Position numbers and translations under genes: made by a program
NCBI RefSeq assembly: GCF_003046175.1
Contig: NZ_PZZM01000001.1
Span: 2,125,001-2,189,000, forward strand
DNA: 64,000 bases
From: Bosea sp. 124
Lineage (GTDB): Bacteria; Pseudomonadota; Alphaproteobacteria; Rhizobiales; Beijerinckiaceae
Direction of reading: 5' to 3'
In this document: piece by piece, positions 2,499-25,361 of the stretch
Layout of the letters: each line of letters begins with the position of its first letter
Numbering within the stretch: position 1 is the first letter of the stretch
Notes under the pieces: generated by a model
What the model saw: only the letters and a program-made list of their open reading frames with translations
Databases searched by the model: none
What the model was told of the DNA's origin: nothing

Positions 2499-3304
2499 CT
2501 CGCAATGGTGAAGCTCAGCTGCACGCGATCGAGCGCCGCATCCAGAAAGAACTCTTCACCTGCACCAACGCAGTCGTATCGCTGGTCGAGCATGCAAGGC
2601 GTGTGAGCAAAGAACGCCCTATCGCCGACTACAACGCGCAGAGGCTGTCATGCTTTGGAACGGATGGGCTGCACGAGTTTGTCGTCGCCCTACGGGTCAT
2701 GCTGCATCATCTCCATATCGTCGATGCCGGCTGGAACCTGCAGACCAACGTCAACAAAGATGGCAATACGGCTTCCTTCATGATCCATAAGGACGCCGTC
2801 TTGCGAATTATGCACGAAAATGAAGGTAGCTTTACACCGAAGACAGCCCGCGAAGCCGCCCGATCGTACATCGCCGCAAAGCCGTCTACGATCGATCTGC
2901 GCGACGTTTTTCAGGAATACGAGGCGCGCGCACATCGGTTCAATAACTGGTTCAAACAGCAACTTCAGTCTGAAAAGCTGGCCGATCTGCGGGATTACGA
3001 CCGGCTCATAAAAGAGAAGGTGAATTTCGACCAGCTGACGATCTACAAAGCAATGATGCACCACTGGCTGAAATGGGACACGCCGCCAGATCCGCACCGG
3101 CACCTGAGCAGGTATCTATCGGCTGACCAGCTTGCCGAAGCTTACAAGCTGCCGCGTAACTCCCCCGAGCAGGTCGATCTGATCATCGGTTATGCCGACC
3201 GGGACAACGCGATTGATGAGAAGCTGCGAGAGCAGGTTTATGAGCTATTTCGGCGATCTCCGTCGCCGGAGCTGATTGAGGAGCCGCTTGATCGAGCGCC
3301 GTGA
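2499..3304 (+). pseudogene. 3' remnant of a gene interrupted by the IS21 element
   Basis: An open frame continues from the IS end for about 268 codons to a stop at 3304. It has protein-like composition but no plausible start after the IS; in-frame codons before 2499 belong to the IS. The product is unrecognised: helical and charged, with an RVMLHH stretch (RxxxxH spacing) near the start of the remnant. That spacing resembles HEPN-type motifs, but this is weak. The 3' end overlaps the convergent recombinase gene by 67 bp. The missing 5' end should lie left of the window, beyond the IS. Confidence 0.6.
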
Positions 3305-3894
3305 TGATCGCTTTCAGGTGAAACGCCGCATGCCTTCTGCGTCTTGATACCCCTGCGAAGGGAACGACTGAGCGTCCATGGCGCGACATCGAAGAGCTGC
3401 GCGACACAGGCCATTGTTGAATTTGGAAGAAGTGCGCGTGCCTGATCGAGCTGGGCGGCATCGAGTTTGGGAGGCCGCCCTAGCCTAACCCCCCGTTTGC
3501 GGGCCGCCGCCAAACCTTCTCTTGTGCGCAGCGAAAGCGTGTTCCGCTCCAGTTCCGACATGGCTCCGAGCATCGTCAGTATGAAAATTCCTGCCGGGGA
3601 GGCGGTGTCGAGGATACTCAGGCTCGCAAGGCGGAAGCCGATACCCTTGGCACGAAATCTCTTGGTTTCAGTAAGCGCGTCGATCGTGGAACGCCAGGCG
3701 CGGTCAAAGTCCCAAACGACAAGGCAATCCCCGGATCGAAGCCGTCGTTTGACCCTCTCATAGACGGGACGGCGCTTACTGGTCGCTGAAACCACCTCGA
3801 TGTGGATTTCATCGCAGAGCCCCCGTAAACCCTCGATTTGCCGGTCGGGACGCTGTTCGTCGGTGCTGACGCGGAGATACCCTATTTTTCTCAT
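3238..3894 (-). CDS. Serine recombinase (resolvase/invertase family)
   Basis: A 218-aa small serine recombinase. The N-terminus GYLRVSTDEQ places the nucleophile at Ser10, and the catalytic domain runs to about residue 140, including the RTREGLAAARKRG segment. A short C-terminal helix-turn-helix lies at about 158-185 (VAQLFDVAPWTLSR). About 30 residues of polar tail beyond the HTH are unusual and coincide with the overlap with the disrupted gene. Such proteins resolve multimers of plasmids or transposons or invert DNA. A res site would be expected in the AT-rich 3895-4070, but I could not define subsites. Confidence 0.85.
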   Translation of the reverse strand: MRKIGYLRVSTDEQRPDRQIEGLRGLCDEIHIEVVSATSKRRPVYERVKRRLRSGDCLVVWDFDRAWRSTIDALTETKRFRAKGIGFRLASLSILDTASPAGIFILTMLGAMSELERNTLSLRTREGLAAARKRGVRLGRPPKLDAAQLDQARALLPNSTMACVAQLFDVAPWTLSRSLRRGIKTQKACGVSPESDHHGARSSGSSISSGDGDRRNSS

Positions 3895-8507: not shown

Positions 8508-9404
8508 ATGAAAAAGGATATTTATCAGACCATTACCAACCGCATCATCGCCGATCTGGAGAAAGGCGTGCGCCCGTGGATGAAACCATGGAGCGTGGAG
8601 AATGCATCGGGGCGGATCAGCCTGCCCCTGCGTGCCAACGGTGTGCCCTATCGCGGCATCAACATCGTGATGCTGTGGTCGCAAGCGATCGAACGCGGAT
8701 ACAGCTCACCGCACTGGATGACGTTCAAGCAGGCCAAGGAGCTTGGCGCCTTCGTCAAGAAGGGCGAACAGGCGTCGGAGGTCGTCTATGCCAGCACGCT
8801 CAGCCGCACGGAAACCGACGAGAAGACGGGCGAGGAATCGGAGCGAAATATCCCCTTCCTTAAATCCTATGCCGTGTTCAATGCCGAGCAGGTGGAAGGA
8901 TTGCCCGAACGGTTCACGATGGCAGCGGAGAGGACGCTGGAGCCGGTGCAGCGGATCGAGCGTGTCGAGGCGTTCATTCGGTCAACGGGCGCGCACATCC
9001 GCCATGGCGGCGGCAATGCCTATTATAATGTAAGCGGCGATCATGTGCAGATGCCATTGTTCGAGACGTTCGATACGCCCGAAAGCTATTACGCGACGAT
9101 TGCCCACGAACTGACGCACTGGACGCGGCATAAGTCGCGCCTTGATCGGGAATTCGGACGCAAGCGGTGGGGCGACGAAGGCTATGCGACCGAGGAACTG
9201 GTTGCCGAGCTTGGTTCCGCCTTTCTCTGCGCCGATCTGGAGCTGACACCGGAGGTTCGGGAGGATCACGCCGCCTACATCGCGAACTGGCTCACCTTCC
9301 TGCGAGGCGACAAGCGCGCGATCTTTACGGCTGCGGGACATGCACAGCGTGCGGCGGATTATCTCCTAGCCTTCAGCGCACCGGCCGCGCAGCAGGCCGC
9401 ATAA
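8508..9404 (+). CDS. ardC: ArdC-type antirestriction protein / zincin-like metallopeptidase
   Basis: A 298-aa two-domain protein. The N-terminal ArdC ssDNA-binding domain (about 1-135) has the typical opening IYQTITNRIIADLEKG, then PWMKPW and YRGINIVMLW. The C-terminal metallopeptidase-like domain contains AHELTHW near residue 200 and a downstream ELVAELGSAF that supplies the third metal ligand. Family members travel on conjugative plasmids and ICEs and protect incoming DNA from restriction. The stop overlaps the next gene's ATG. The presence of this gene supports a transfer-capable element. Confidence 0.9.
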   Translation: MKKDIYQTITNRIIADLEKGVRPWMKPWSVENASGRISLPLRANGVPYRGINIVMLWSQAIERGYSSPHWMTFKQAKELGAFVKKGEQASEVVYASTLSRTETDEKTGEESERNIPFLKSYAVFNAEQVEGLPERFTMAAERTLEPVQRIERVEAFIRSTGAHIRHGGGNAYYNVSGDHVQMPLFETFDTPESYYATIAHELTHWTRHKSRLDREFGRKRWGDEGYATEELVAELGSAFLCADLELTPEVREDHAAYIANWLTFLRGDKRAIFTAAGHAQRAADYLLAFSAPAAQQAA

Positions 9405-9883: not shown

Positions 9884-11071
9884 ATGCCTCCATATGATGA
9901 TGACTTTAAAGAAATCGCTCACTGTGGAGGGCAGGCAACCTTCAACGTTCGTTGCGACGCTGACGGGAGGATTAGCGTCGCTCCCGGGTTTCGACATTCG
10001 AGCCCCGGCCCGGCGTCGTGGATAGGCATATATGCTTTGGAGTTTAATGCGCAGCCCGTGATGGATTTCAACATGGGTGGCATTGGGCAAGGATTCGATC
10101 CACCGATGCCGGAAGAGTGCTGGCCGGTATTCCTTGGCTCAGATTCACAAATGAAACGGGGGCATCAATGCCCCCGATGTAAAGGGGATTTTCGAAACTC
10201 CAGCCACACGAAAATTTTCCCCCTTAGTTGTCCGTATTGCGGACTGAAGACAGAGGCCTTTCGATTTCTAACGCCTGCGCAGCGCAGGTATGTCGCCCAT
10301 TACATGGAGACGCTAATGGGCGCCTATCACACCGAGATGGAGCCGAACACGGAAAAAGAAATCGTAATTGATATGGACGCGATCGCCGACCAAGAAGTCG
10401 GAGCGCGGCCAGATTTTTACTATGCAGAAGAGTCCCAGCAAACGCGCTATACGTGCAAAAAGTGCGACGAATTTAACGACATACGTGGGCTATACGGCTA
10501 CTGTGCAGGCTGCGGACATCGTAATAATGCGACATCGTTCCGCACGGCAGCAGCCAAATTACGTGATGACCTGAACAATGGCGTCTCCAGTCCGAGTGAA
10601 GTGGTTCGATCCTGTGTCTCGAAATTCGACGCCTGCTGCCGTGACATTCTAGCCCAGGTTTCCAAAAGAGTGGCCATGCGGCCATCGAGACGCGCAGACT
10701 TTGACCGTCTCAAATTTCACGACGTTGAAAATGACGTCTTTAAGCGCCTAAAGCCAATGTTCGATATCGATTTGTTGCGGGGTATCTCGGCTGCCGATTC
10801 GAGCTTTCTCACCCTCATGCTCCACCGCCGCCACGTCTACGAGCACAATGACGGTGTGAGCGATGACCGCTATGTCCGTGAAAGCGGCGACACCGATGCG
10901 CGCATTGGCGTTCTCATCCGGGAGACGCAGGAAAATGCCCACCGGCTCCTCGGAATTCTGGCGCGCATGGTCGAGAATATGCAGACCGATTTCCACGAAG
11001 TATTCCCATTGACCAAATGGCCAGTAGAGTACGCAGAAGGGATACGAAGGCGCCGAGCCGCGCGCGCTTGA
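9884..11071 (+). CDS. Zinc-ribbon protein with a possible HEPN-like C-terminus
   Basis: A 395-aa protein of unknown family. Two Cys4 zinc ribbons are visible: CPRC...CPYC at about residues 95-118 and CKKC...CAGC at about 190-213. The C-terminal 170 residues are helical and include RHVYEH at about 316, matching the RxxxxH motif of HEPN RNases, within a helix pair (LTLMLHRRHVYEHNDG). The G+C content is lower than the chromosome's. It stands alone (187 bp upstream and 149 bp downstream) at the left edge of the defence genes. A defence or toxin role is inferred from HEPN spacing and context. Confidence 0.65.
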   Translation: MPPYDDDFKEIAHCGGQATFNVRCDADGRISVAPGFRHSSPGPASWIGIYALEFNAQPVMDFNMGGIGQGFDPPMPEECWPVFLGSDSQMKRGHQCPRCKGDFRNSSHTKIFPLSCPYCGLKTEAFRFLTPAQRRYVAHYMETLMGAYHTEMEPNTEKEIVIDMDAIADQEVGARPDFYYAEESQQTRYTCKKCDEFNDIRGLYGYCAGCGHRNNATSFRTAAAKLRDDLNNGVSSPSEVVRSCVSKFDACCRDILAQVSKRVAMRPSRRADFDRLKFHDVENDVFKRLKPMFDIDLLRGISAADSSFLTLMLHRRHVYEHNDGVSDDRYVRESGDTDARIGVLIRETQENAHRLLGILARMVENMQTDFHEVFPLTKWPVEYAEGIRRRRAARA

Positions 11072-11220: not shown

Positions 11221-12828
11221 ATGGCAGATTTGGTCGCCGATTACCTCAAAGAGCATGGTCCAGTCCGATCGTCGGTATTGGCTGCCGCTTTGCAGGCTGA
11301 GGGGTTGTCACCAGAAGCCGCCCGTCAGCGGCTTTCGCGGACACGGCCGCCGATCTTCAAGTTTCCACTGCGGTTGCTCCCGAAGAACGAAGCGTTTTTC
11401 TATCTCAAGGATCAACGCAACACCGAACTGTTCTGGGCCAATTTTCTGCGAGACATGCGCGAAACAGGTTCAATATTCGGGATCGCATTGGATGGAATGA
11501 TTGCGCGCGGCGGACGGGTTTATGCCGACCAGTTTGCGGTAATAAGCGGCGCGCCCGCTCGGCCGATGAAGAAGCAGCTGAGCGCTGAGCGCGTCGCTGA
11601 AACGTTGAGCAAGGCAAGCGTCATTCGTGAGTATGTTGACGCGGACAGTCGAAAATATCTCTCGTTCTCGGCGGCTGGCGGAGTGCTCGATATCAACGGG
11701 CCGGCCGAGCTTGTTATGCTCGACGCCGTTCGCGAGTGGGCCCGCAAGCTGGGCTTTGCAAGCTATAACAGTATTGCCATTCGCGGAGAGGACGGACTGG
11801 TCCCCATCGGCCCATTTATGTTTGATCTGGCCGGACCCAGTTGGTTCGGGCCAATCCCACAAAGCGGCGGGAAGCCTGGCTTTCTCGTCGCGGATGTTTT
11901 TGCGGAAGGCCCGCTGACCGAGCACCAGATCCAGTTTTTTATCCGCAAAGTCACGATGCTGAAGGCAATGCGGAACGGTATGAACGTTATGCCGATACTT
12001 GTGGCGGAAAGCTTCACCGGCGCCGCACTGACCGCCGGTCACGCTGCTGGCATTAGTCTCGCTACACCCACGATATTATTCGGCAGGCGTGTTGGTGCGG
12101 CTCTCGTCTCCCTCGTGCAGACACTCAAGAATGCTGCCGCCTACGCCTCTGCTAACGATCCAGACCGCATTGTCACCCTCATCTACGATCTGGCTGAAAT
12201 TGAAGGTCGCGCGGGCAACCTGCGTGGCATCCTGTTTGAACTGCTTGCTGCTTATCTGTCTCGCCGCGATGCTGTTTCGATCGATATGGGCATCAAGGCT
12301 CGCGATCCGACGACCGGCATGTCAGCGGACATCGACATTTTGAAAGTCACGGCGATGGGAGCGTCGGTTACCTGCATCGAATGCAAGGGAAAGGAGCCTG
12401 GCGGTGCAGTGACCAAGGGCGAGGTTGAGGAATGGCTCCGCAAAACCGCGATCATGAAAGCCCACCTGGCCGTTCAATATTCGTTTCGCGAAGCGGAAAA
12501 GCGCTTTGAAATTTGGACGTCGGGAACATTCGACGCCGACGCTCTAACGCTCCTGACTGCCGAGCAAGCCAGACGAACAAAGTCGCCTATTGGATGGAAA
12601 GATGGAAGGGATGTCCTCGCCATTGCGACAGCAGGGAAAGAGAAAGCGATGGCCGACGCGTTGCAGCAGCACTTTCTGAAACACCCCCTGCAAGAGGTTG
12701 CCGTCGTCGCGGCCACTCTCGATCCAGAGAATGCGCCGTCACATCTCGATCAGCTCTTGGCGATCCATGGACCGGCCCCTTTTGGTGGATATTTGAGCCT
12801 TCCCGCGCCGACCAAGGCTGGCAAATAA
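11221..12828 (+). CDS. PD-(D/E)xK nuclease-like protein with N-terminal winged helix
   Basis: A 535-aa protein. Residues 1-60 look like a winged helix (VADYLKEHGPVRSSVLAAAL). Residues about 335-400 carry the restriction-endonuclease core in order: Glu in FELLAAYL (338), Asp in ADIDILKV (369), and ExK in CIECKGK (384-390). This E-D-ExK arrangement matches Mrr/Holliday-junction-resolvase-type nucleases. It ends 130 bp before the Gabija nuclease gene and is co-directional. It may be an independent restriction factor or an accessory to Gabija; no close family is recognised. Confidence 0.7.
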   Translation: MADLVADYLKEHGPVRSSVLAAALQAEGLSPEAARQRLSRTRPPIFKFPLRLLPKNEAFFYLKDQRNTELFWANFLRDMRETGSIFGIALDGMIARGGRVYADQFAVISGAPARPMKKQLSAERVAETLSKASVIREYVDADSRKYLSFSAAGGVLDINGPAELVMLDAVREWARKLGFASYNSIAIRGEDGLVPIGPFMFDLAGPSWFGPIPQSGGKPGFLVADVFAEGPLTEHQIQFFIRKVTMLKAMRNGMNVMPILVAESFTGAALTAGHAAGISLATPTILFGRRVGAALVSLVQTLKNAAAYASANDPDRIVTLIYDLAEIEGRAGNLRGILFELLAAYLSRRDAVSIDMGIKARDPTTGMSADIDILKVTAMGASVTCIECKGKEPGGAVTKGEVEEWLRKTAIMKAHLAVQYSFREAEKRFEIWTSGTFDADALTLLTAEQARRTKSPIGWKDGRDVLAIATAGKEKAMADALQQHFLKHPLQEVAVVAATLDPENAPSHLDQLLAIHGPAPFGGYLSLPAPTKAGK

Positions 12829-16527: not shown

Positions 16528-17022
16528 TAAGCCGAACGGGACGGAGATAATTCCCGTATAGTATTTGCAGGCGATAAAGGCCGAGCGTTGCTCGCAAGCT
16601 GTGTAATGTAAACACATTACCAGCTTGGGAAGGGGGCCCGCTGCGCGCCCCCGTTCCATCCCCCCGGCCATTGGCCCGGATTTCGACATCGAGCCTACAC
16701 CGGGCCAGTGCACCGATCCGCCGGTGCATCACGGGTCAGTGGAGCGTCCCTGCTCCTCCGACACCGCCATGGCCAAGGAGACCCGGTCTCCCTGGACCCA
16801 ACGATTGGCAGCTCGGCCCTGAGCCTACCGAGGTGTAGGCTCGGCACGATCCGCCGTCTCCCTCGTACAATTGCCTGGGAGTTGTTCGGCGGCAGCCCTT
16901 GCGGCGCCGCCTCGTTTCATTCTACTTTTGTTCTATGGCCGCTCACGTTCTGACCAAATTGCTTCCAAGCTTGAAGCCAAGCCCGATTGCCGGGCGCCGG
17001 GCGCGGGGATCGCGAGCGACGA
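16528..17022. other. 495-bp region between Gabija and SPARTA, no gene seen
   Basis: No credible open frame. It holds an interrupted inverted repeat at 16596-16626 and a perfect hairpin at 16821-16842 (GAGCCTAC / GTAGGCTC, 6-nt loop), whose left arm also appears as a direct repeat at 16691-16698. Base composition from about 16630 to 16900 is GC-rich like the chromosome, unlike the flanking defence genes, so it may be debris from an earlier insertion. The promoter of the TIR-Argonaute pair should lie in the right part. Confidence 0.5.
16596..16626. repeat. Interrupted inverted repeat after gajB
   Basis: The left arm 16596-16609 and right arm 16614-16626 are complementary over 13 bp with one unpaired T at 16602; the spacer is AAAC. 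The core GTAATGT-AAAC-ACATTAC is perfect. There is no U-tract, so it is a better candidate for an operator or recombination site than for a terminator, though a role in ending the gajAB transcript cannot be excluded. Confidence 0.5.
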
Positions 17023-18438
17023 GTGGATAGTTCTCCTGTCGCCATCACCGCCGGTGCAAGCGATCCAACCCTCGTTCGCGACATCGTCTTCATCAGTAAA
17101 GGGACGCCCAACGACGACGAGTTCACTCTTTGGCTCGCGCCTCGGTTGGAGGCCGCCGGATATGTCGTTTTCGCCGATATCTTGAACCTGCAAGGCGGGG
17201 ACCGCTGGCGAAAAGAGCTGACTGAAACCCTGCAAAAGCGCGCTGTGAAAATGCTGCTTTGCTGCCAGGACGCGACGCTCGCAAAGAACGGCGTTCAAGA
17301 AGAAATCGGCATAGCAGAGGATCTGGCAAAGGAGCTGGATGACAAGCGCTTTATTATCCCGTTACGGCTGAAGAAGTTTAAAAAGCTGTTTGGCATAGGT
17401 GGCCTTCAATACGTTGATTTCGAGCATAGCTGGGCGAAGGGCCTGATCGATCTCCTAGAATTGCTTGAGCGCCAAGGCGTTCCTTGTGACAGGCAGCACG
17501 CAGTCATAAATCCGAATTGGGAACTCTATCGGAAGCGGCATTCACTCGAACTTATTCAAAGCCCTGAGACGCTCACTTCGAACTGGCTGCGCATCGCGGC
17601 CATTCCGAGCCAGATTCGGTACTGCGAACCCACCGGCGCGATCGACCACAGCAGGACAAAGAAAGCCTATGGCGATGCCGGCTTTCCGTTCTACCTTCAC
17701 AATCGTGGCGTTCTCACATTTCTGACCGCCGATGAGATGAGGGCTGCTGTCCGGGATCTTGGCTCTTTTCAAGAGCTGCATAGCGTCTCGGTGCAGACGT
17801 TCGCCGAAGAAGGTATGCCAGAAATCGGCCTTCAACCACGCGAAGCCAAAAACATTCTGGTGTTTCTGTTCAAGGCTGCCTGGCAAAATTTCTGCAAGGC
17901 AAATGGCTTCCTTGAATATCACTATTCCAAGACGCCCGGTTATCACGTCGGGAAAGCCAAACTGGCGGTGGGCAAGAAAATTCCCTGGGGGCGGCAGGGA
18001 AGCAAGCGTTCTGCGATGCTTCGCAATGTCGCGAAGGGGAAGGTTTGGCAGTTCGGAATCTCGGCTATCCCGGTTCTCTGGCCCTACTATCATTTTCGCC
18101 TAAAATCGCGGGTTCTGTTCGCTGAGTTTGAGAATGATAAAGAGGGATCGCTTGTTGCCGACGACAAGCAGTTCCGCCTTCGACGCTCCGTCTGCAAGGG
18201 ATGGAGAAACAAGCAGTGGCACGGAAGGCTGATGGCCTTTTTAGAACTCATGGCCGGCGAGAGGGCTTATATCGATTTGGCGGTAAGTCCGACCGAATCT
18301 ATTCGGCTCGACAGCGCGCCCCAGCTCTTCACATCACCCGTGACGACCCCGCTGCCAAACGTCCTCGGCGAAGAGGATGAGGACTCCGATCCATCCGTGC
18401 TGGGCAATCGGGACATCGAGCAGGAGGCTGCGGAATGA
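17023..18438 (+). CDS. TIR-APAZ protein of a SPARTA short-Argonaute system
   Basis: A 471-aa protein from the GTG at 17023; a TTG at 16987 in frame would add 12 low-complexity residues. Residues about 18-150 form a TIR domain: DIVFISKG on strand A, FADILNLQGGDRW on the BB-loop side, and a likely catalytic Glu in NGVQEEIG. The remaining 320 residues match the APAZ-type region that pairs with short Argonautes. The gene overlaps the Argonaute gene by 4 bp (ATGA), with AGGAGG just upstream. In SPARTA, guide-directed detection of invader DNA oligomerises the complex and the TIR domain hydrolyses NAD(P)+, killing or arresting the cell. Confidence 0.87.
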   Translation: MDSSPVAITAGASDPTLVRDIVFISKGTPNDDEFTLWLAPRLEAAGYVVFADILNLQGGDRWRKELTETLQKRAVKMLLCCQDATLAKNGVQEEIGIAEDLAKELDDKRFIIPLRLKKFKKLFGIGGLQYVDFEHSWAKGLIDLLELLERQGVPCDRQHAVINPNWELYRKRHSLELIQSPETLTSNWLRIAAIPSQIRYCEPTGAIDHSRTKKAYGDAGFPFYLHNRGVLTFLTADEMRAAVRDLGSFQELHSVSVQTFAEEGMPEIGLQPREAKNILVFLFKAAWQNFCKANGFLEYHYSKTPGYHVGKAKLAVGKKIPWGRQGSKRSAMLRNVAKGKVWQFGISAIPVLWPYYHFRLKSRVLFAEFENDKEGSLVADDKQFRLRRSVCKGWRNKQWHGRLMAFLELMAGERAYIDLAVSPTESIRLDSAPQLFTSPVTTPLPNVLGEEDEDSDPSVLGNRDIEQEAAE

Positions 18439-19991
18439 TCGAACTGCCTGAGAAATCGCTTCAGATCATCCATATCGCAGAGCCGCAGCTTGGTTTTGCG
18501 CACGGGCAGACCTGCGAACATCCAAAAGATGGCTTGCACCTCTACGGCCCGAACTCCGGACCCACGCGGCCGATCAAAGTGAGAGTCGGCGCCGTCGGGA
18601 CTGCGACCGGCCTTGCCTATCTGGATAAGCACCTCATCGCGTTGTGCAATCCTGTCGACGTTCCACCGCCAGGGAAAACGGACAAAGAAAACAGACTGCA
18701 TCTTTCGAATTTTCCAGGACTAGAAGAGACCTTCGGAATTTCAATCGACACGAAGAGCATCGCTCGCCGCGTCGTCAAAATTGAAGAAATCGAACGTGCG
18801 ACGCTGATTATCAATCATCACGAGGCAGTCCGAGAGGTCGTTGACGTCTATGTTAAAGCGATTGATGAGCACGAGAAAAATGAAGAGCAATCGGTAGATA
18901 TCTGGATACTAGTGCTTCCAGAGATCATATATGATCGCTGTAAACCGAAATCCCGTCGTTCAGGCCTGAATCTTGTGTTGGGGACCTTCGCGCGGACGCA
19001 AAGCAAGAAGATTGACCTGCCCCTTTTCGCCGACGTGATTGATCAGTCCGCCGAAGAAATATTCGAAGATATGCCGAATTTTCACCGGCAGGTGAAAGCC
19101 CAACTCCTAAGACGAGCGAAAACATCTCAGCTCGTCCGGGAGACAACATTGGCGCCCGCAGAATTTGTAAATAAGGCGGGCTATCCATCTCGGCCGATCC
19201 AAGAGCCAGCGAGTGTCGCTTGGAACTTGGCAACTGGCATCTATTATAAGACGCAGCCAGAGCCACCTTGGAAATTGGCGAGCGCGCGTCCTGGCGTTTG
19301 CTATATCGGCCTCGTCTTTAAGGTGCTGCCCAATCATCCGAAGCACCATGCCTGTTGTGCCGCTCAGATGTTTTTGAGCGAGGGCGATGGGATCGTTTTT
19401 CGCGGGGCCAATGGCGCTTGGAAAACGTCGGATTATGAATTTCACCTCAGCGAGAGCGAGGCGAAAAAGCTCATTCAGAAAGTCATTGATACCTTCACCG
19501 AAAAACACGGGAAGCCGCCGACAGAGCTATTCATTCACGGCAAGACGACGTTTAACAAGGTGGAGTGGGATGCGTTCTCGTCCGTCTGCCCTCCGGGGAC
19601 AAATTTGGTTGGCGTCAGAATAAAGACAACGGACGGCGACACGAAGCTCTTCAGGGACGGTGATTATCCCGTTCTCCGTGGCACCGCGATGATCCTCGAT
19701 GATCGCAATGCATTCCTTTGGACAACGGGCTTTCTGCCTCGGCTGGACACCTATATCGGCCCGGAGACACCCAACCCGCTTTCCGTGACAATTCTGAAAA
19801 GCACCGGCCCGACACCCCCCATCGAGAATGTCCTCGGGGATATAATGGGGCTGACAAAATTGAATTATAATGCGTGCAATTTCAATGATTCACTTCCGGT
19901 TACGATCCAGTTCGCCGACAAGGTCGGTGATGTACTTACGCTAAAGGCTGCTCAGGGCGCGGAAAAGCAGCCCTTCAAATATTATATTTGA
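18435..19991 (+). CDS. Short prokaryotic Argonaute (MID-PIWI), SPARTA partner
   Basis: A 518-aa short pAgo lacking N and PAZ domains; about 500 aa is usual. The MID domain spans roughly the first half and PIWI about 260-510. Recognisable PIWI signatures are ELFIHGKTTFN near 364, the GVRIKTTDGD strand, and the C-terminal TKLNYNACNFND followed by PVTIQFADKVGDVL. I do not see the DEDX catalytic tetrad at the expected places, consistent with the inactive PIWI of short pAgos. It binds guide RNA and target DNA and is the sensor for the TIR-APAZ subunit encoded just upstream. Confidence 0.88.
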   Translation: MIELPEKSLQIIHIAEPQLGFAHGQTCEHPKDGLHLYGPNSGPTRPIKVRVGAVGTATGLAYLDKHLIALCNPVDVPPPGKTDKENRLHLSNFPGLEETFGISIDTKSIARRVVKIEEIERATLIINHHEAVREVVDVYVKAIDEHEKNEEQSVDIWILVLPEIIYDRCKPKSRRSGLNLVLGTFARTQSKKIDLPLFADVIDQSAEEIFEDMPNFHRQVKAQLLRRAKTSQLVRETTLAPAEFVNKAGYPSRPIQEPASVAWNLATGIYYKTQPEPPWKLASARPGVCYIGLVFKVLPNHPKHHACCAAQMFLSEGDGIVFRGANGAWKTSDYEFHLSESEAKKLIQKVIDTFTEKHGKPPTELFIHGKTTFNKVEWDAFSSVCPPGTNLVGVRIKTTDGDTKLFRDGDYPVLRGTAMILDDRNAFLWTTGFLPRLDTYIGPETPNPLSVTILKSTGPTPPIENVLGDIMGLTKLNYNACNFNDSLPVTIQFADKVGDVLTLKAAQGAEKQPFKYYI

Positions 19992-20029: not shown

Positions 20030-20145
20030 AAACGGTCATCAAACCGGCCATTTAAGCGAATTAATTATCGTAGAAATTTGGCTATCTGCATGATAATATG
20101 AATTAATTGAAAAAATTAAACCGGCCATAAAACCGGCCATCTAAG
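20030..20145. promoter_or_regulatory. Direct-repeat cluster upstream of the Fic gene
   Basis: Three exact copies of AAACCGGCCAT (20041-20051, 20118-20128, 20130-20140) plus one degenerate copy (AAACGGTCATC, 20030-20040) form two tandem pairs about 90 bp apart in AT-rich DNA. The longer units AAACCGGCCATTTAAG and AAACCGGCCATCTAAG close each pair. The right pair ends 13 bp before the Fic ATG, so it would overlap the promoter or leader. This is the layout of an operator for an autoregulating protein or of iterons; function is inferred. Confidence 0.5.
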
Positions 20146-20153
20146 TGGTAGAT

Positions 20154-21350
20154 ATGCCTTTAAGAGACGATAATGAGGGAATAGGCCTTTTCGAACCGCT
20201 GATGGTTTCAAGCGGTAATAAGGCGCGAGATGACCTCAACGATCTAGCATTAGAGCTCGCAAAGCGCTCGGAGGGGTTTCGCCGCAGCCTGCCGGAATCG
20301 ATCGCGACCGCACTCGCCGATCTCGTGCGTTCGATGAATTGCTACTACAGCAATCTCATCGAAGGCCATAACACGCACCCGGTCGATATTGAACGCGCGC
20401 TTGCGGGCGACTACAGCGCCAACCCCGGCAAGCGCAATCTTCAGCTCGAGGCGAAAGCGCACATCACCGTCCAGAAGTGGATCGACGACGGCGGTATTCC
20501 GGGCAGCGCCACCGACCCGGCGGTCATCTGCGACATCCACAAACGGTTCTGCGAGCTGCTGCCTGCTGAGCTGCTTACGGTTGAAGATCCTGTCACGCAC
20601 GAGCGGTTCGAGATTGTGCCGGGCGCGTTGCGGGAGCGCGACGTGCAGGTCGGGCGGCTGGTCGCGATCAGCCCCGGCGCTGTTCCCCGCTTCCTGGACC
20701 GGATGCATCAGGCCTATGGCCGGCTCGGCAAGATCGAATCCATTCTTGCTGCCGCGTGCGGACACCATCGGCTTCTTTGGGTCCACCCGTTTATCGACGG
20801 GAACGGCCGCGTCGCGCGATTGATGTCGTATGCCATGCTTTTGCGCGCGCTCGACACGAGGGGGTTGTGGTCCGTCGCGCGCGGCCTAGCTCGCAAGGAA
20901 ACGGCCTACAAGGCGCATCTCGCCGCCTGCGATCTTCCACGCCGTAACGACCTTGATGGGCGCGGGACACTGAGTGAGGAAGAGCTTGCGAAATTCACGT
21001 GCTTCTTCCTGGAAGCCTGCATCGATCAGGTCGACTTTATGGAAGGGCTGATGAAGCCGGACCGGTTGCGTGACCGCATCATGATCTGGACCGAAGAGCA
21101 AATGCGCGCGGAAGTGTTGCCAGCGAAGTCCGATATCGTGCTGAAAGCTCTTCTTTATCAAGGCTCACTGGAGCGCGGCGAGATCGCGCCCCTTCTCGGC
21201 CTTAGTGATCGCGCGGCGCGGCGCGTTACATCCTCACTGCTCGATGCCGGCGTGATCAGTTCCGAGACGACGCGAAGCCCGCTGTTTCTGGCATTCCCCG
21301 CGAAATACGCGGATCGCTGGATGCCAGGGCTGTTCCCGCCGGCAGAATGA
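20154..21350 (+). CDS. Fic-domain AMP transferase with built-in inhibitory helix
   Basis: A 398-aa protein from the ATG at 20154; an in-frame GTG at 20145 is possible. The Fic core is HPFIDGNGRVAR at about 212-223, giving the catalytic His and the phosphate-binding GNGR. The N-terminal SNLIEG (about 67-72) fits the S/TxxxE(G/N) inhibitory motif, so this is a class II Fic that restrains itself. The C-terminus (about 325-385) has a winged-helix look (GEIAPLLGLSDRAARRV), suggesting DNA binding and autoregulation through the upstream repeats. Fic proteins transfer AMP from ATP to target hydroxyls. The target is unknown. Confidence 0.88.
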   Translation: MPLRDDNEGIGLFEPLMVSSGNKARDDLNDLALELAKRSEGFRRSLPESIATALADLVRSMNCYYSNLIEGHNTHPVDIERALAGDYSANPGKRNLQLEAKAHITVQKWIDDGGIPGSATDPAVICDIHKRFCELLPAELLTVEDPVTHERFEIVPGALRERDVQVGRLVAISPGAVPRFLDRMHQAYGRLGKIESILAAACGHHRLLWVHPFIDGNGRVARLMSYAMLLRALDTRGLWSVARGLARKETAYKAHLAACDLPRRNDLDGRGTLSEEELAKFTCFFLEACIDQVDFMEGLMKPDRLRDRIMIWTEEQMRAEVLPAKSDIVLKALLYQGSLERGEIAPLLGLSDRAARRVTSSLLDAGVISSETTRSPLFLAFPAKYADRWMPGLFPPAE

Positions 21351-22332: not shown

Positions 22333-23616
22333 TTAGGTCGGCGAAATGTCGCGTCGCCTACGCATTCTGCGCACAGCGCCTGCGACGTACAATTCCACCA
22401 ATTGCTCGGGCACGCGCGCATGGTCTCCAGGCTCCTGGAGTAATTGCAACTCGCTTTCCAAGCGCTGCTCGTGCTCTCGGATCTGGCGATGGAGCAAACG
22501 GCGGTCATGCAGCTGCCGTTCGATCAAGGCCTGCTGCTCAGCACGATCCCGCTGATGCGCGCGTAAAAGTTCGGCCTCGTTGTGGCGCCGTATCTCAGCG
22601 TGACGCCCCGTGATCCGGTCCCAAATCCCTCTCAGAAACCCGCTGCTGAAGCGTTCATGCCGGATGCGCGCTTCCTGCGTTTGCCGGACAGTGTGTAGCT
22701 CCATCTGAATCTGACGTTCATGGCGTTGCCATGCAACGAGCTTGCGCTTCTGTTCCTGGAGGCCGAGCCGCGCTTCATTGAACTCGCTCTTCGCTTCCGC
22801 TGCGAAGCGCATCAATTTCACACTGACCTCCCGTGCCAGACGTTCTTTCACGTCAGTGACAGTAGGGTAGCCAGCGGGCTCGCCGAGGCGTGCGTTCACT
22901 TCCTTCGTTTTGACATCTGCCCAGCGGGCGATCGCGTAAACTTCACCCGTGTGATCGAGGGTGACAAATGCCCGCCGGTCCCCACGCGCGACGTAATAGC
23001 CGCGTGCTTCCATCGCCTGTACGAACGCCTTAGCGGAATCTGAGATCGCCCAGCAATCCTGAAAAATGGCCTTGATCGTGCGCGGATCGCGGCTGATCCG
23101 CTTGGCCTGCTGCCATTCTTCCCGTGAGAAATTCAGGGGGTTGCGCTCCTCGCTGTTCACGAGCCCACGTGGCATCTTCCAGCCATGCTCGATAAAAAGC
23201 TCGCGCGTCAGATCCTTCAGCTTCATTTTGAAATGCGGCATGTTCACCGCGCGCATCTCGTCCGCCTTGATCCGCGACCATACGCAATGGGCATGGCGTC
23301 GCCCCTGTTTCTCATGGAAGACGATGACGCGCGGCTGACCAGTCAAGCCGAGCTTTTCTTCCGCCGCACCGATCGCGCGCTCGAAATCCGCAACGGTCGC
23401 CGTCTCGCCTTCCGGCGGATTGAAGCTGCATGAAAAAAGGAACTGCCGGCACTTCGTGCCTTTGCTGATGGCATAGGCCTCCCGAAATGCGCTTTCGACA
23501 TCCTCGCCCATGAAGCCCCTGACTTCGTGAACATGAACATGATCATTCTCGTCGTCGCGCATGAGATGCACGGCGAGCGCTTTTCCGCCCGCGCGCTGTG
23601 ACGCTTTAATGATCAT
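22333..23616 (-). CDS. Relaxase / mobilization nuclease (MobP-VirD2-like)
   Basis: A 427-aa protein. The N-terminal relaxase domain (about 1-190) has the histidine metal site HEKQGRRHAHCVW (His101, His108, His110) and an early GGKALAVHLMR region that would contain the catalytic residue environment. Residues 260-420 are a long Arg/Glu/Gln-rich coiled coil. Such enzymes nick oriT and pilot the strand in conjugative transfer. It overlaps mobC by 11 bp and is downstream of it. With no coupling protein or mating-pair genes in view, the element looks mobilizable rather than self-transmissible, unless those genes lie to the left. Confidence 0.85.
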   Translation of the reverse strand: MIIKASQRAGGKALAVHLMRDDENDHVHVHEVRGFMGEDVESAFREAYAISKGTKCRQFLFSCSFNPPEGETATVADFERAIGAAEEKLGLTGQPRVIVFHEKQGRRHAHCVWSRIKADEMRAVNMPHFKMKLKDLTRELFIEHGWKMPRGLVNSEERNPLNFSREEWQQAKRISRDPRTIKAIFQDCWAISDSAKAFVQAMEARGYYVARGDRRAFVTLDHTGEVYAIARWADVKTKEVNARLGEPAGYPTVTDVKERLAREVSVKLMRFAAEAKSEFNEARLGLQEQKRKLVAWQRHERQIQMELHTVRQTQEARIRHERFSSGFLRGIWDRITGRHAEIRRHNEAELLRAHQRDRAEQQALIERQLHDRRLLHRQIREHEQRLESELQLLQEPGDHARVPEQLVELYVAGAVRRMRRRRDISPT

Positions 23617-23989
23617 CTGCGCCTCCTTCGATCAGGCCGAGGCCGACCATCAGTCGCTCACGGATTTCAAGCGTGGCGTTGCAGGCCGACCGGATCGCTT
23701 CTTCTGTTTCTTGATTGACGGGGAGGGCGCCAACGCGGGCTGCCTGGAGCATTTCGCGGAGCATCGGCGCCAGATCGGATTGTCCGAGTATGGCCAAGAC
23801 ATGCGCGACTTGCCGCGCATTGGCCGTCGGTTCCTGCCACCGGCGAGGACGGTTTTCGCCATTGAAGAGTCGCGTGCGAATGTACTCGCCCAGCGTCCGT
23901 TTCCCCGCTTCCGCGACGAGACGGCTCCGCTCCTCCTCCGTCAGCCTTATTGAGACTGGCGTAGTTTTTGGTCCTCGTTTGGAAGGCAT
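23606..23989 (-). CDS. MobC-like relaxosome accessory protein
   Basis: A 127-aa protein. Residues about 10-40 (VSIRLTEEERSRLVAEA) match the ribbon-helix-helix type start of MobC/TraJ-like proteins, and the rest is helical with SDLAPMLREMLQAARVG. It is the first gene of the mob unit and overlaps the relaxase by 11 bp. MobC proteins bind oriT and help the relaxase open the nick region. Three small hairpins precede its start codon, and a candidate nick motif lies about 200 bp upstream. Confidence 0.78.
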   Translation of the reverse strand: MPSKRGPKTTPVSIRLTEEERSRLVAEAGKRTLGEYIRTRLFNGENRPRRWQEPTANARQVAHVLAILGQSDLAPMLREMLQAARVGALPVNQETEEAIRSACNATLEIRERLMVGLGLIEGGADDH

Positions 23990-23993
23990 TTCA

Positions 23994-24052
23994 ATCCCGA
24001 AGCGGGATCGAACCGATGCCGGATTTGCCGTAAATCCGCTCAGGCCGAGCGG
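23994..24052 (-). promoter_or_regulatory. Three consecutive hairpins in the mobC leader
   Basis: Perfect 6-bp stems lie at 23994-24008 (3-nt loop), 24021-24037 (5-nt loop) and 24036-24052 (5-nt loop). The second and third share two bases, so they compete. The nearest ends 4 bp before the mobC ATG. The arrangement could be an operator array for MobC, part of oriT, or an RNA leader. It superficially resembles a tRNA cloverleaf, but the acceptor stem and T-loop do not match. Confidence 0.45.
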
Positions 24053-24136
24053 CTACGGCGCCTCTGGTTTAGGTCCGATATCCCACGCTACGTGAATGAA
24101 ACGGCGCTTAGAGCGAGCCCCCGCAACCAACCATTC

Positions 24137-24200: not shown

Positions 24201-24427
24201 AAGCCGATCGCTGCCTCCAAAGGATCGCGGCCGGCGAGACGCCGCCTGACCCCCGGTCGATCGTTCCAGCCTGCGGTAGGGTGCTGAAAGGACCGACAAG
24301 CCGCTGCTGACATCGGATGTCGCCAGGCCGGTTCAGCGCCGCCGCCGGGGCTGCTATGTTGCCTACGGAGACAGGGAACGGCCCTGGCGCATTCGCCGGC
24401 AAGCGTATCCGGCCCGGGGGACCCGAA

Positions 24428-25240: not shown

Positions 25241-25274
25241 TCCTGCGCGTCAGGCCAAACCCTGATCAGGCCAA

Positions 25275-25361
25275 GTCCTGGTCAGATCAGGTCCTGGTCA
25301 GATCAGGTCCTGGTCAGATCAGGTCCTGGTCAGATCAGGTCCTGGTCAGATCAGGTCCTGG
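25275..25361. repeat. Five perfect 16-bp tandem repeats
   Basis: The unit GTCCTGGTCAGATCAG occurs exactly five times (25275-25354), followed by a partial sixth copy (GTCCTGG, 25355-25361). Degenerate precursors (TCAGGCCAAACCCTGA and TCAGGCCAAGTCC) lie just left at 25253-25278. The array fills the gap between the convergent DUF72 and ybaK genes. Its right end enters the ybaK stop region, so that the last residues DLI and the stop are encoded by a repeat copy. Confidence 0.95.

Follow-up and report, generated by a model that had tools for sequence, protein, structure and literature searches.

Solved SPARTA systems (8qlo/8qlp; CrtSPARTA, 8isy; MapSPARTA, 8fex and 8ffi) consist of a TIR-APAZ protein and a short prokaryotic Argonaute (pAgo), with a catalytic glutamate, a pocket for the 5′-phosphate of the guide and an inactive PIWI domain; all of these features are shared by a gene pair in the Bosea sp. 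124 window (the whole 64-kb stretch of DNA that was analysed). Koopal et al., in 2022, reportedly observed plasmid interference by SPARTA. A complex loaded with guide RNA would base-pair with an invader's complementary single-stranded DNA, complexes would then assemble via their TIR domains, and the assembled TIRs would hydrolyse NAD(P)+, such that the invaded cell arrests or dies. The guide type, the tetramer, the NADase activity and the abortive outcome are presumed here from characterised relatives, and the guide-dependent NADase mechanism, which an initial annotation of the window had taken from established knowledge of short pAgos, is supported for this pair by homology. We consider it highly probable, on sequence grounds, that the pair is a genuine and apparently intact SPARTA system, and it appears a largely ordinary, further member of this known defence type. 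Its wider interest is twofold: the window is a clear example, at genome level, of SPARTA and a Gabija pair carried together on what appears to be an element with a relaxase, located at a tRNA-Met gene, and relatives of the pair split cleanly into an NADase type and a type with a nuclease-fused, glutamate-less TIR-APAZ protein.

In the list of open reading frames (ORFs), both genes lie at the coordinates initially assigned to them, neither contains an internal stop, and their four-base overlap, described from the outset, is an ATGA (Table 1). An alternative TTG start for the TIR gene is possible at 16987; the GTG at 17023 is favoured because P0121, the nearest TIR-APAZ relative among the matches listed (90% identical), is also 471 residues long. 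PADLOC, Pfam and solved SPARTA chains agree on the SPARTA assignment. TIR_2 (PF13676) is the sole Pfam domain in the TIR-APAZ protein (residues 22–141; 65.6 bits versus a cut-off of 28), with no match to Mrr_cat, and the best PADLOC model, Aga_TIR-PNTD1-PNTD2 (PDLC02400), matches residues 13–470 at 1e-184. A phmmer search of the PDB gave nine distinct sequences at E ≤ 1, of which eight (418–484 residues) match at 2.2e-41 to 1.9e-38 and the ninth is a weak TIR match (E 0.63); the solved TIR-APAZ chains align across residues 18–462, and they, like the PADLOC model, extend through the APAZ region that the initial annotation had expected in the C-terminal half. For the Argonaute, Pfam found no domain, PADLOC matched pAgo_I (1.7e-204; residues 9–518), and the best five of 16 PDB matches are short Argonautes (4.8e-116 to 4.3e-106), the best chains covering residues 10–518. 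The Foldseek list described below gives SPARTA or short-pAgo titles for four of these five entries (8qlo, 8j8h, 8ifk and 8fex) and does not contain 8j7s. For both proteins, the PADLOC and PDB E-values are far beyond what chance would be expected to give.

Excerpts from two studies of characterised systems define the residues to be compared. In the C. thermophila system, Glu77 is catalytic, His207, Lys211, Asn468 and Ile507 are located at the guide 5′-phosphate and Mg2+, and Val284, Tyr328, Arg362 and Asn484 replace the catalytic tetrad (PMC11156904, in excerpt); for M. polysiphoniae SPARTA, E77A was used as the catalytic mutant, and effects are reported for T11, F45, W46, Y105, G42, D44 and R114 (PMC10474274, in excerpt). 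We numbered residues by script from printed alignments, with 8j8h_B as the TIR reference row (its first aligned Met being residue 1) and 8fex_B (MapSPARTA) as the Argonaute reference row. E94 of the window TIR, singled out early on as a candidate catalytic residue, aligns with E77 of 8j8h_B, the NADase glutamate; T28, W62, G59 and D60 are also kept. The Argonaute contains the ELFIHGK motif already noted, the final lysine of which is K370, and its PIWI tetrad reads V294/F336/K370/D495 (8fex_B positions 284/328/362/484) rather than DEDX, consistent with the degenerate catalytic site first described. The core of the guide 5′-phosphate pocket is retained (H217, K221, R253, N479 and the C-terminal I518), as are guide/target contacts R225, T228, R243, K286, K395, N439 and N466 (reference numbering).

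Protein searches at E ≤ 1e-10 identified 3089 relatives of the Argonaute and 1094 of the TIR-APAZ protein, each among approximately 8000 scored candidates; 11 of the 120 listed Argonautes and 12 of the 120 listed TIR-APAZ proteins were aligned with the window proteins. E94, T28, W62, F123 and Q129 are invariant across all 13 TIR rows, and R61 is arginine in 12 of them; H217, K221, R235, T238, R253 and N479 are invariant across all 12 Argonaute rows. Of 368 pattern matches in a scan of genome contigs, 340 were Argonaute relatives, and 80 loci were kept from these (counts refer to sequences, and several loci are near-identical). The lysine, arginine and asparagine of the 5′-phosphate pocket are each present in all 80, and the histidine in 69.

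Without exception, these 80 loci carry a TIR-APAZ relative directly upstream of the Argonaute; the genes overlap by NTGA in 68, and by TAATG or TGATG in seven of the remaining 12. The position of the TIR glutamate could be read in 75 loci, of which 39 have E, 24 D, seven L, three N and two V. With the most upstream start codon taken as the origin, 2–40 residues precede the TIR in the 39 glutamate loci, versus 183–238 in the 36 others (L049, L050, L055, L058-L064, L066-L071, L073-L077, L079, L084, L088, L091, L093, L094, L101, L103, L106-L112). When nine of the latter proteins were scanned with Pfam, TIR_2 and Mrr_cat were found in every one (Mrr_cat E 3.4e-6 to 0.033, above the curated cut-off in four), and five proteins run through PADLOC matched nearly the full 639-position PDLC02400 model as well as the REase-TIR model; L067, which has an internal stop in the TIR-APAZ frame, was left out of both scans. 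All 36 show a DGR...LQAK signature, which a strict pattern detected in 16 and inspection by eye, in a looser form, in the other 20. In an Argonaute tree (FastTree, midpoint-rooted), the 36 fall into one 37-tip clade with no glutamate member (local support 0.998), the TIR position of the 37th tip not being covered. Loss of the glutamate and gain of the N-terminal domain are most simply explained as one event.

That PD-(D/E)XK domains precede some TIR-APAZ proteins has been described (PMC2743648, in excerpt), and clade S2A is said to include (Mrr-)TIR-APAZ (PMC12205087, in excerpt), so the Mrr-TIR-APAZ architecture is already known; in the excerpts of the literature covered we met no description of the glutamate loss, and make no firm claim that it is unreported. 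Mrr-TIR-APAZ (PADLOC Aga_REase-TIR) is close to the window pair in its Argonaute (55–60% identical in the 36 loci) and related in its APAZ, but differs in its N-terminal nuclease-like domain and lost TIR glutamate, neither of which changes is seen in the window. Since only 17–18 residues precede its TIR and E94 is kept, the window protein is placed in the NADase-type group. We lean, with some reserve, towards a single exchange of effector in a neighbouring clade of the same Argonaute family, in which an Mrr-like nuclease was fused N-terminally and the TIR lost its NADase glutamate whilst surviving only as an assembly or sensing module, with window-type pairs representing the NADase side. The split makes it testable whether a TIR can persist as a non-enzymatic trigger once a new effector has been added.

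Assignment of the pair to a different short-pAgo effector class, namely SPARSA (SIR2), SPARDA (nuclease) or Mrr-TIR-APAZ, could draw on the match of the Argonaute to other short-Argonaute models (PADLOC Aga_SIR2, 5.1e-28), and on the fact that the first 179 positions of PDLC02400, which in relatives correspond to the Mrr-like domain, are unmatched by the window protein. However, the TIR is detected by both Pfam and PADLOC, no N-terminal domain lies ahead of it, E94 is retained as in the 39 nuclease-free relatives, and neither window protein was found to contain a SIR2 or nuclease domain, making this reading exceedingly improbable. Evidence against the SPARTA reading concerns details of the TIR and of guide binding. 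F45, Y105, R114 and N116 of Map/CrtSPARTA are replaced in the window by R61, L122, G127 and Q129 (in the Y105/R114 stretch the alignment is interrupted by a gap of four residues and the model is of low confidence), several guide/target contacts are changed (R72>L90, K287>V297, position 325>D333, R364>T372 and R481>Q492), and the residues aligned with pAgo–pAgo interface positions 35 and 37 are G42 and I47. The AlphaFold model of the TIR-APAZ protein, built from 13 sequences, has a mean predicted local distance difference test score of 70.8 and a predicted template modelling (TM) score of 0.54; confidence is low in the TIR, with residues 119–128 below 50. Compared with full-length SPARTA chains the model gives a TM-score of ~0.4–0.46 by query and a root-mean-square deviation (rmsd) of ~20 Å, and its domain orientation is therefore not to be trusted; it fits three partial chains of 251–286 residues better (TMt 0.71–0.82; rmsd 3.8–7.7 Å). 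Ranks 1–35 of the 50 Foldseek PDB matches listed for the model (1243 in total) are SPARTA or TIR-APAZ/Ago entries, to which it is 20–28% identical in the fold alignments, and those that follow are mainly SPARSA and SPARDA, a ranking in favour of SPARTA. As the glutamate is gone in 36 of the 75 relatives, TIR-APAZ homology alone is no proof of NADase activity. The lack of conservation at F45, Y105, R114 and N116, together with the glutamate loss that did occur in a related clade, is what might suggest an inactive SPARTA, persisting merely as mobile cargo after its TIR lost the NADase function. We regard this as improbable: the frames of both genes are intact, and the substitutions seem to characterise the lineage, because E94, W62, T28, F123 and Q129 are invariant among the aligned close relatives. 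A weaker idea is that in this subgroup R61, F123 and Q129 may form the NAD site in place of F45, Y105, R114 and N116.

The Gabija pair, absent from the initial annotation, is complete and lies upstream of SPARTA on the same strand, 495 bp away. This proximity raises the question of whether the two form one composite system, a reading to which L053, with a different Gabija directly upstream of SPARTA (~150 bp between ORFs; GajA 26.6% identical over the longest segment), and L082, with GajA/GajB-like ORFs after the Argonaute, lend some weight. A GajA- plus GajB-like pair is nevertheless found in only four of the 80 related loci (L053, L070, L077 and L082) and the order varies, so that a composite is hardly probable. 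The profiles behind this count derive from four sequences of GajA and three of GajB, and flanks of ~10 kb are available to either side in 47 of the 80 loci; a tblastn count gave three of 80. PADLOC, run on GajA of L053, L070 and L077 and on GajB of L053 and L077, confirms all five. Gabija as a constant partner of SPARTA was rejected on the same four loci. Gabija defends without SPARTA, and we treat GajA/GajB as a separate known defence pair, directly upstream of the SPARTA genes and not part of them; we make no firm claim that the neighbourhood is unreported.

Table 1. Features of the SPARTA locus and its carrier element (coordinates are positions in the 64-kb window).
Feature	Position	Strand	Remarks
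GajA, 609 aa	12959..14788	+	PADLOC GajA E=0, 1134.2 bits
GajB, 580 aa	14785..16527	+	PADLOC GajB E=0, 1039.1 bits; 4-bp overlap with GajA
TIR-APAZ protein, 471 aa	17023..18438	+	GTG start; TIR ~19-150, APAZ C-terminal ~180-430
ATGA overlap of TIR-APAZ and Argonaute genes	18435..18438	+	4 bp
Short Argonaute (MID-PIWI), 518 aa	18435..19991	+	ATG start; degenerate PIWI, conserved guide 5′-phosphate pocket
Relaxase (MobA/VirD2-like)	22333..23616	-	Pfam Relaxase PF03432, 2.4e-13
NikA-like mobilization protein	23606..23989	-	Pfam NikA-like 1.2e-4, 22.6 bits; weak, below curated cut-off of 27
Right edge: 12-bp tRNA-Met 3′ end, putative attachment (att) scar	24118..24129	+	followed by terminator hairpin and host DUF72 gene

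The mobilizable element proposed in the initial annotation is upheld by the relaxase and by a putative tRNA-Met scar at its right edge. The motif CCCCCGCAACCA at 24118–24129 is followed by a terminator-like hairpin; GC content per 2-kb interval is 51–60% within 2001–24000 and 62–72% to the right. At the DNA level, homology with three further genomes of the same genus begins at 24424–24425, before the DUF72 gene, and one of the three has an extra 43-bp match inside the host sequence. ARAGORN found a tRNA-Met(CAT) ending in the same motif directly upstream of the DUF72 gene in two of nine related loci (L118 and L121), and no tRNA in the fetched flank of the other seven, nor in longer stretches (L124–L126) from three of those genomes. 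We read 24118–24129 as a probable integration scar at the 3′ end of tRNA-Met, presumably the initiator tRNA, with L118 and L121 as two empty sites in the genus. Elsewhere in the genome the motif recurs, again with this terminator, ~180 bp from an identical 1295-bp copy of the IS21-like start of the window, and another genome, G311, has two copies of the motif. Among the window proteins scanned, the only recombinase-type match is a resolvase (3238–3894). The sequence evidence thus supports a carrier that is a relaxase-bearing mobilizable element, apparently integrated at tRNA-Met and delimited at its right edge only.

Near IS21-like genes, G311 carries relatives of MobA (73% over 401 residues) and MobC (83% over 126). 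There (L123, 10320–16617) the mob genes adjoin DNA methyltransferase, Vsr, restriction endonuclease (REase)-like and HNH genes where the window has Gabija and SPARTA, with PDC-M33A-like genes also alongside; from two examples, this suggests a mobilizable backbone whose defence cargo can be exchanged. Only two of the 80 SPARTA loci (L033 and L090) have MobA and MobC relatives nearby. At E ≤ 1e-60, MobA relatives were found in at least three of 298 family genomes, the Bosea sp. 124 genome included (of the other two, G286 was viewed by ORF list), a lower bound because G311 is absent from those matches and was evidently not drawn. The non-coding stretch 24000–24130, upstream of the NikA-like gene, is 92% identical in G311 (75% for 22457–24130 overall) and is a candidate origin of transfer (oriT) with hairpins, the fold z-score of which also takes in the terminator hairpin.

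As cargo beside Gabija, SPARTA would probably protect both the host and the element from other plasmids and phages, and the integrated element itself would not be expected to trigger it. The initial annotation had considered a location on a mobilizable element notable; this part is weakened, because close relatives are common on plasmids. Argonaute relatives at 1e-50 occur on 34 of 72,556 plasmid records (27 predicted conjugative, seven non-mobilizable), whilst no match was found at 1e-10 among 50,697 phage records, and a mobile location is usual for SPARTA relatives. Horizontal spread of pAgos has been inferred before (PMC6299218, in excerpt). Alphaproteobacterial examples are Sinorhizobium fredii NGR234 (NC_000914) and S. 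meliloti (NZ_CP021821), whose short Argonautes are 58.9–59.1% identical over 99–100% and have a TIR protein annotated alongside; both are plasmid-borne, in contrast to the chromosomal copy in the window. Within the family, pAgo_I profile matches (1e-3) were obtained in 29 of the 298 genomes, with three better than 1e-190 (Bosea sp. 124 being counted in both figures), and Argonaute protein matches at 1e-40 in 10 of 385 genomes of the class, again with its own included.

Several neighbouring features were also recorded. Downstream of SPARTA, a Fic protein (20145–21350; PADLOC SoFic, 5.6e-20; Pfam Fic), which has no relative within the 80 related loci at 1e-5, and a YkuD protein precede the mob genes. 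Beside Gabija, 9884–11071 and 11221–12828 encode proteins of 395 and 535 residues without a Pfam family, the former having a weak PADLOC candidate match (PDC-M14A, 2.4e-8), and ArdC is located further left of Gabija and SPARTA, at 8508–9404. An RNA-family search of window positions 1–32000 gave just three sub-threshold microRNA matches. Near the window start, a perfect 44-bp palindrome (2389–2432) adjoins an istA/istB-like pair that we take to be IS21, and a 16-bp tandem repeat array is present at 25249–25361, downstream of the DUF72 gene.

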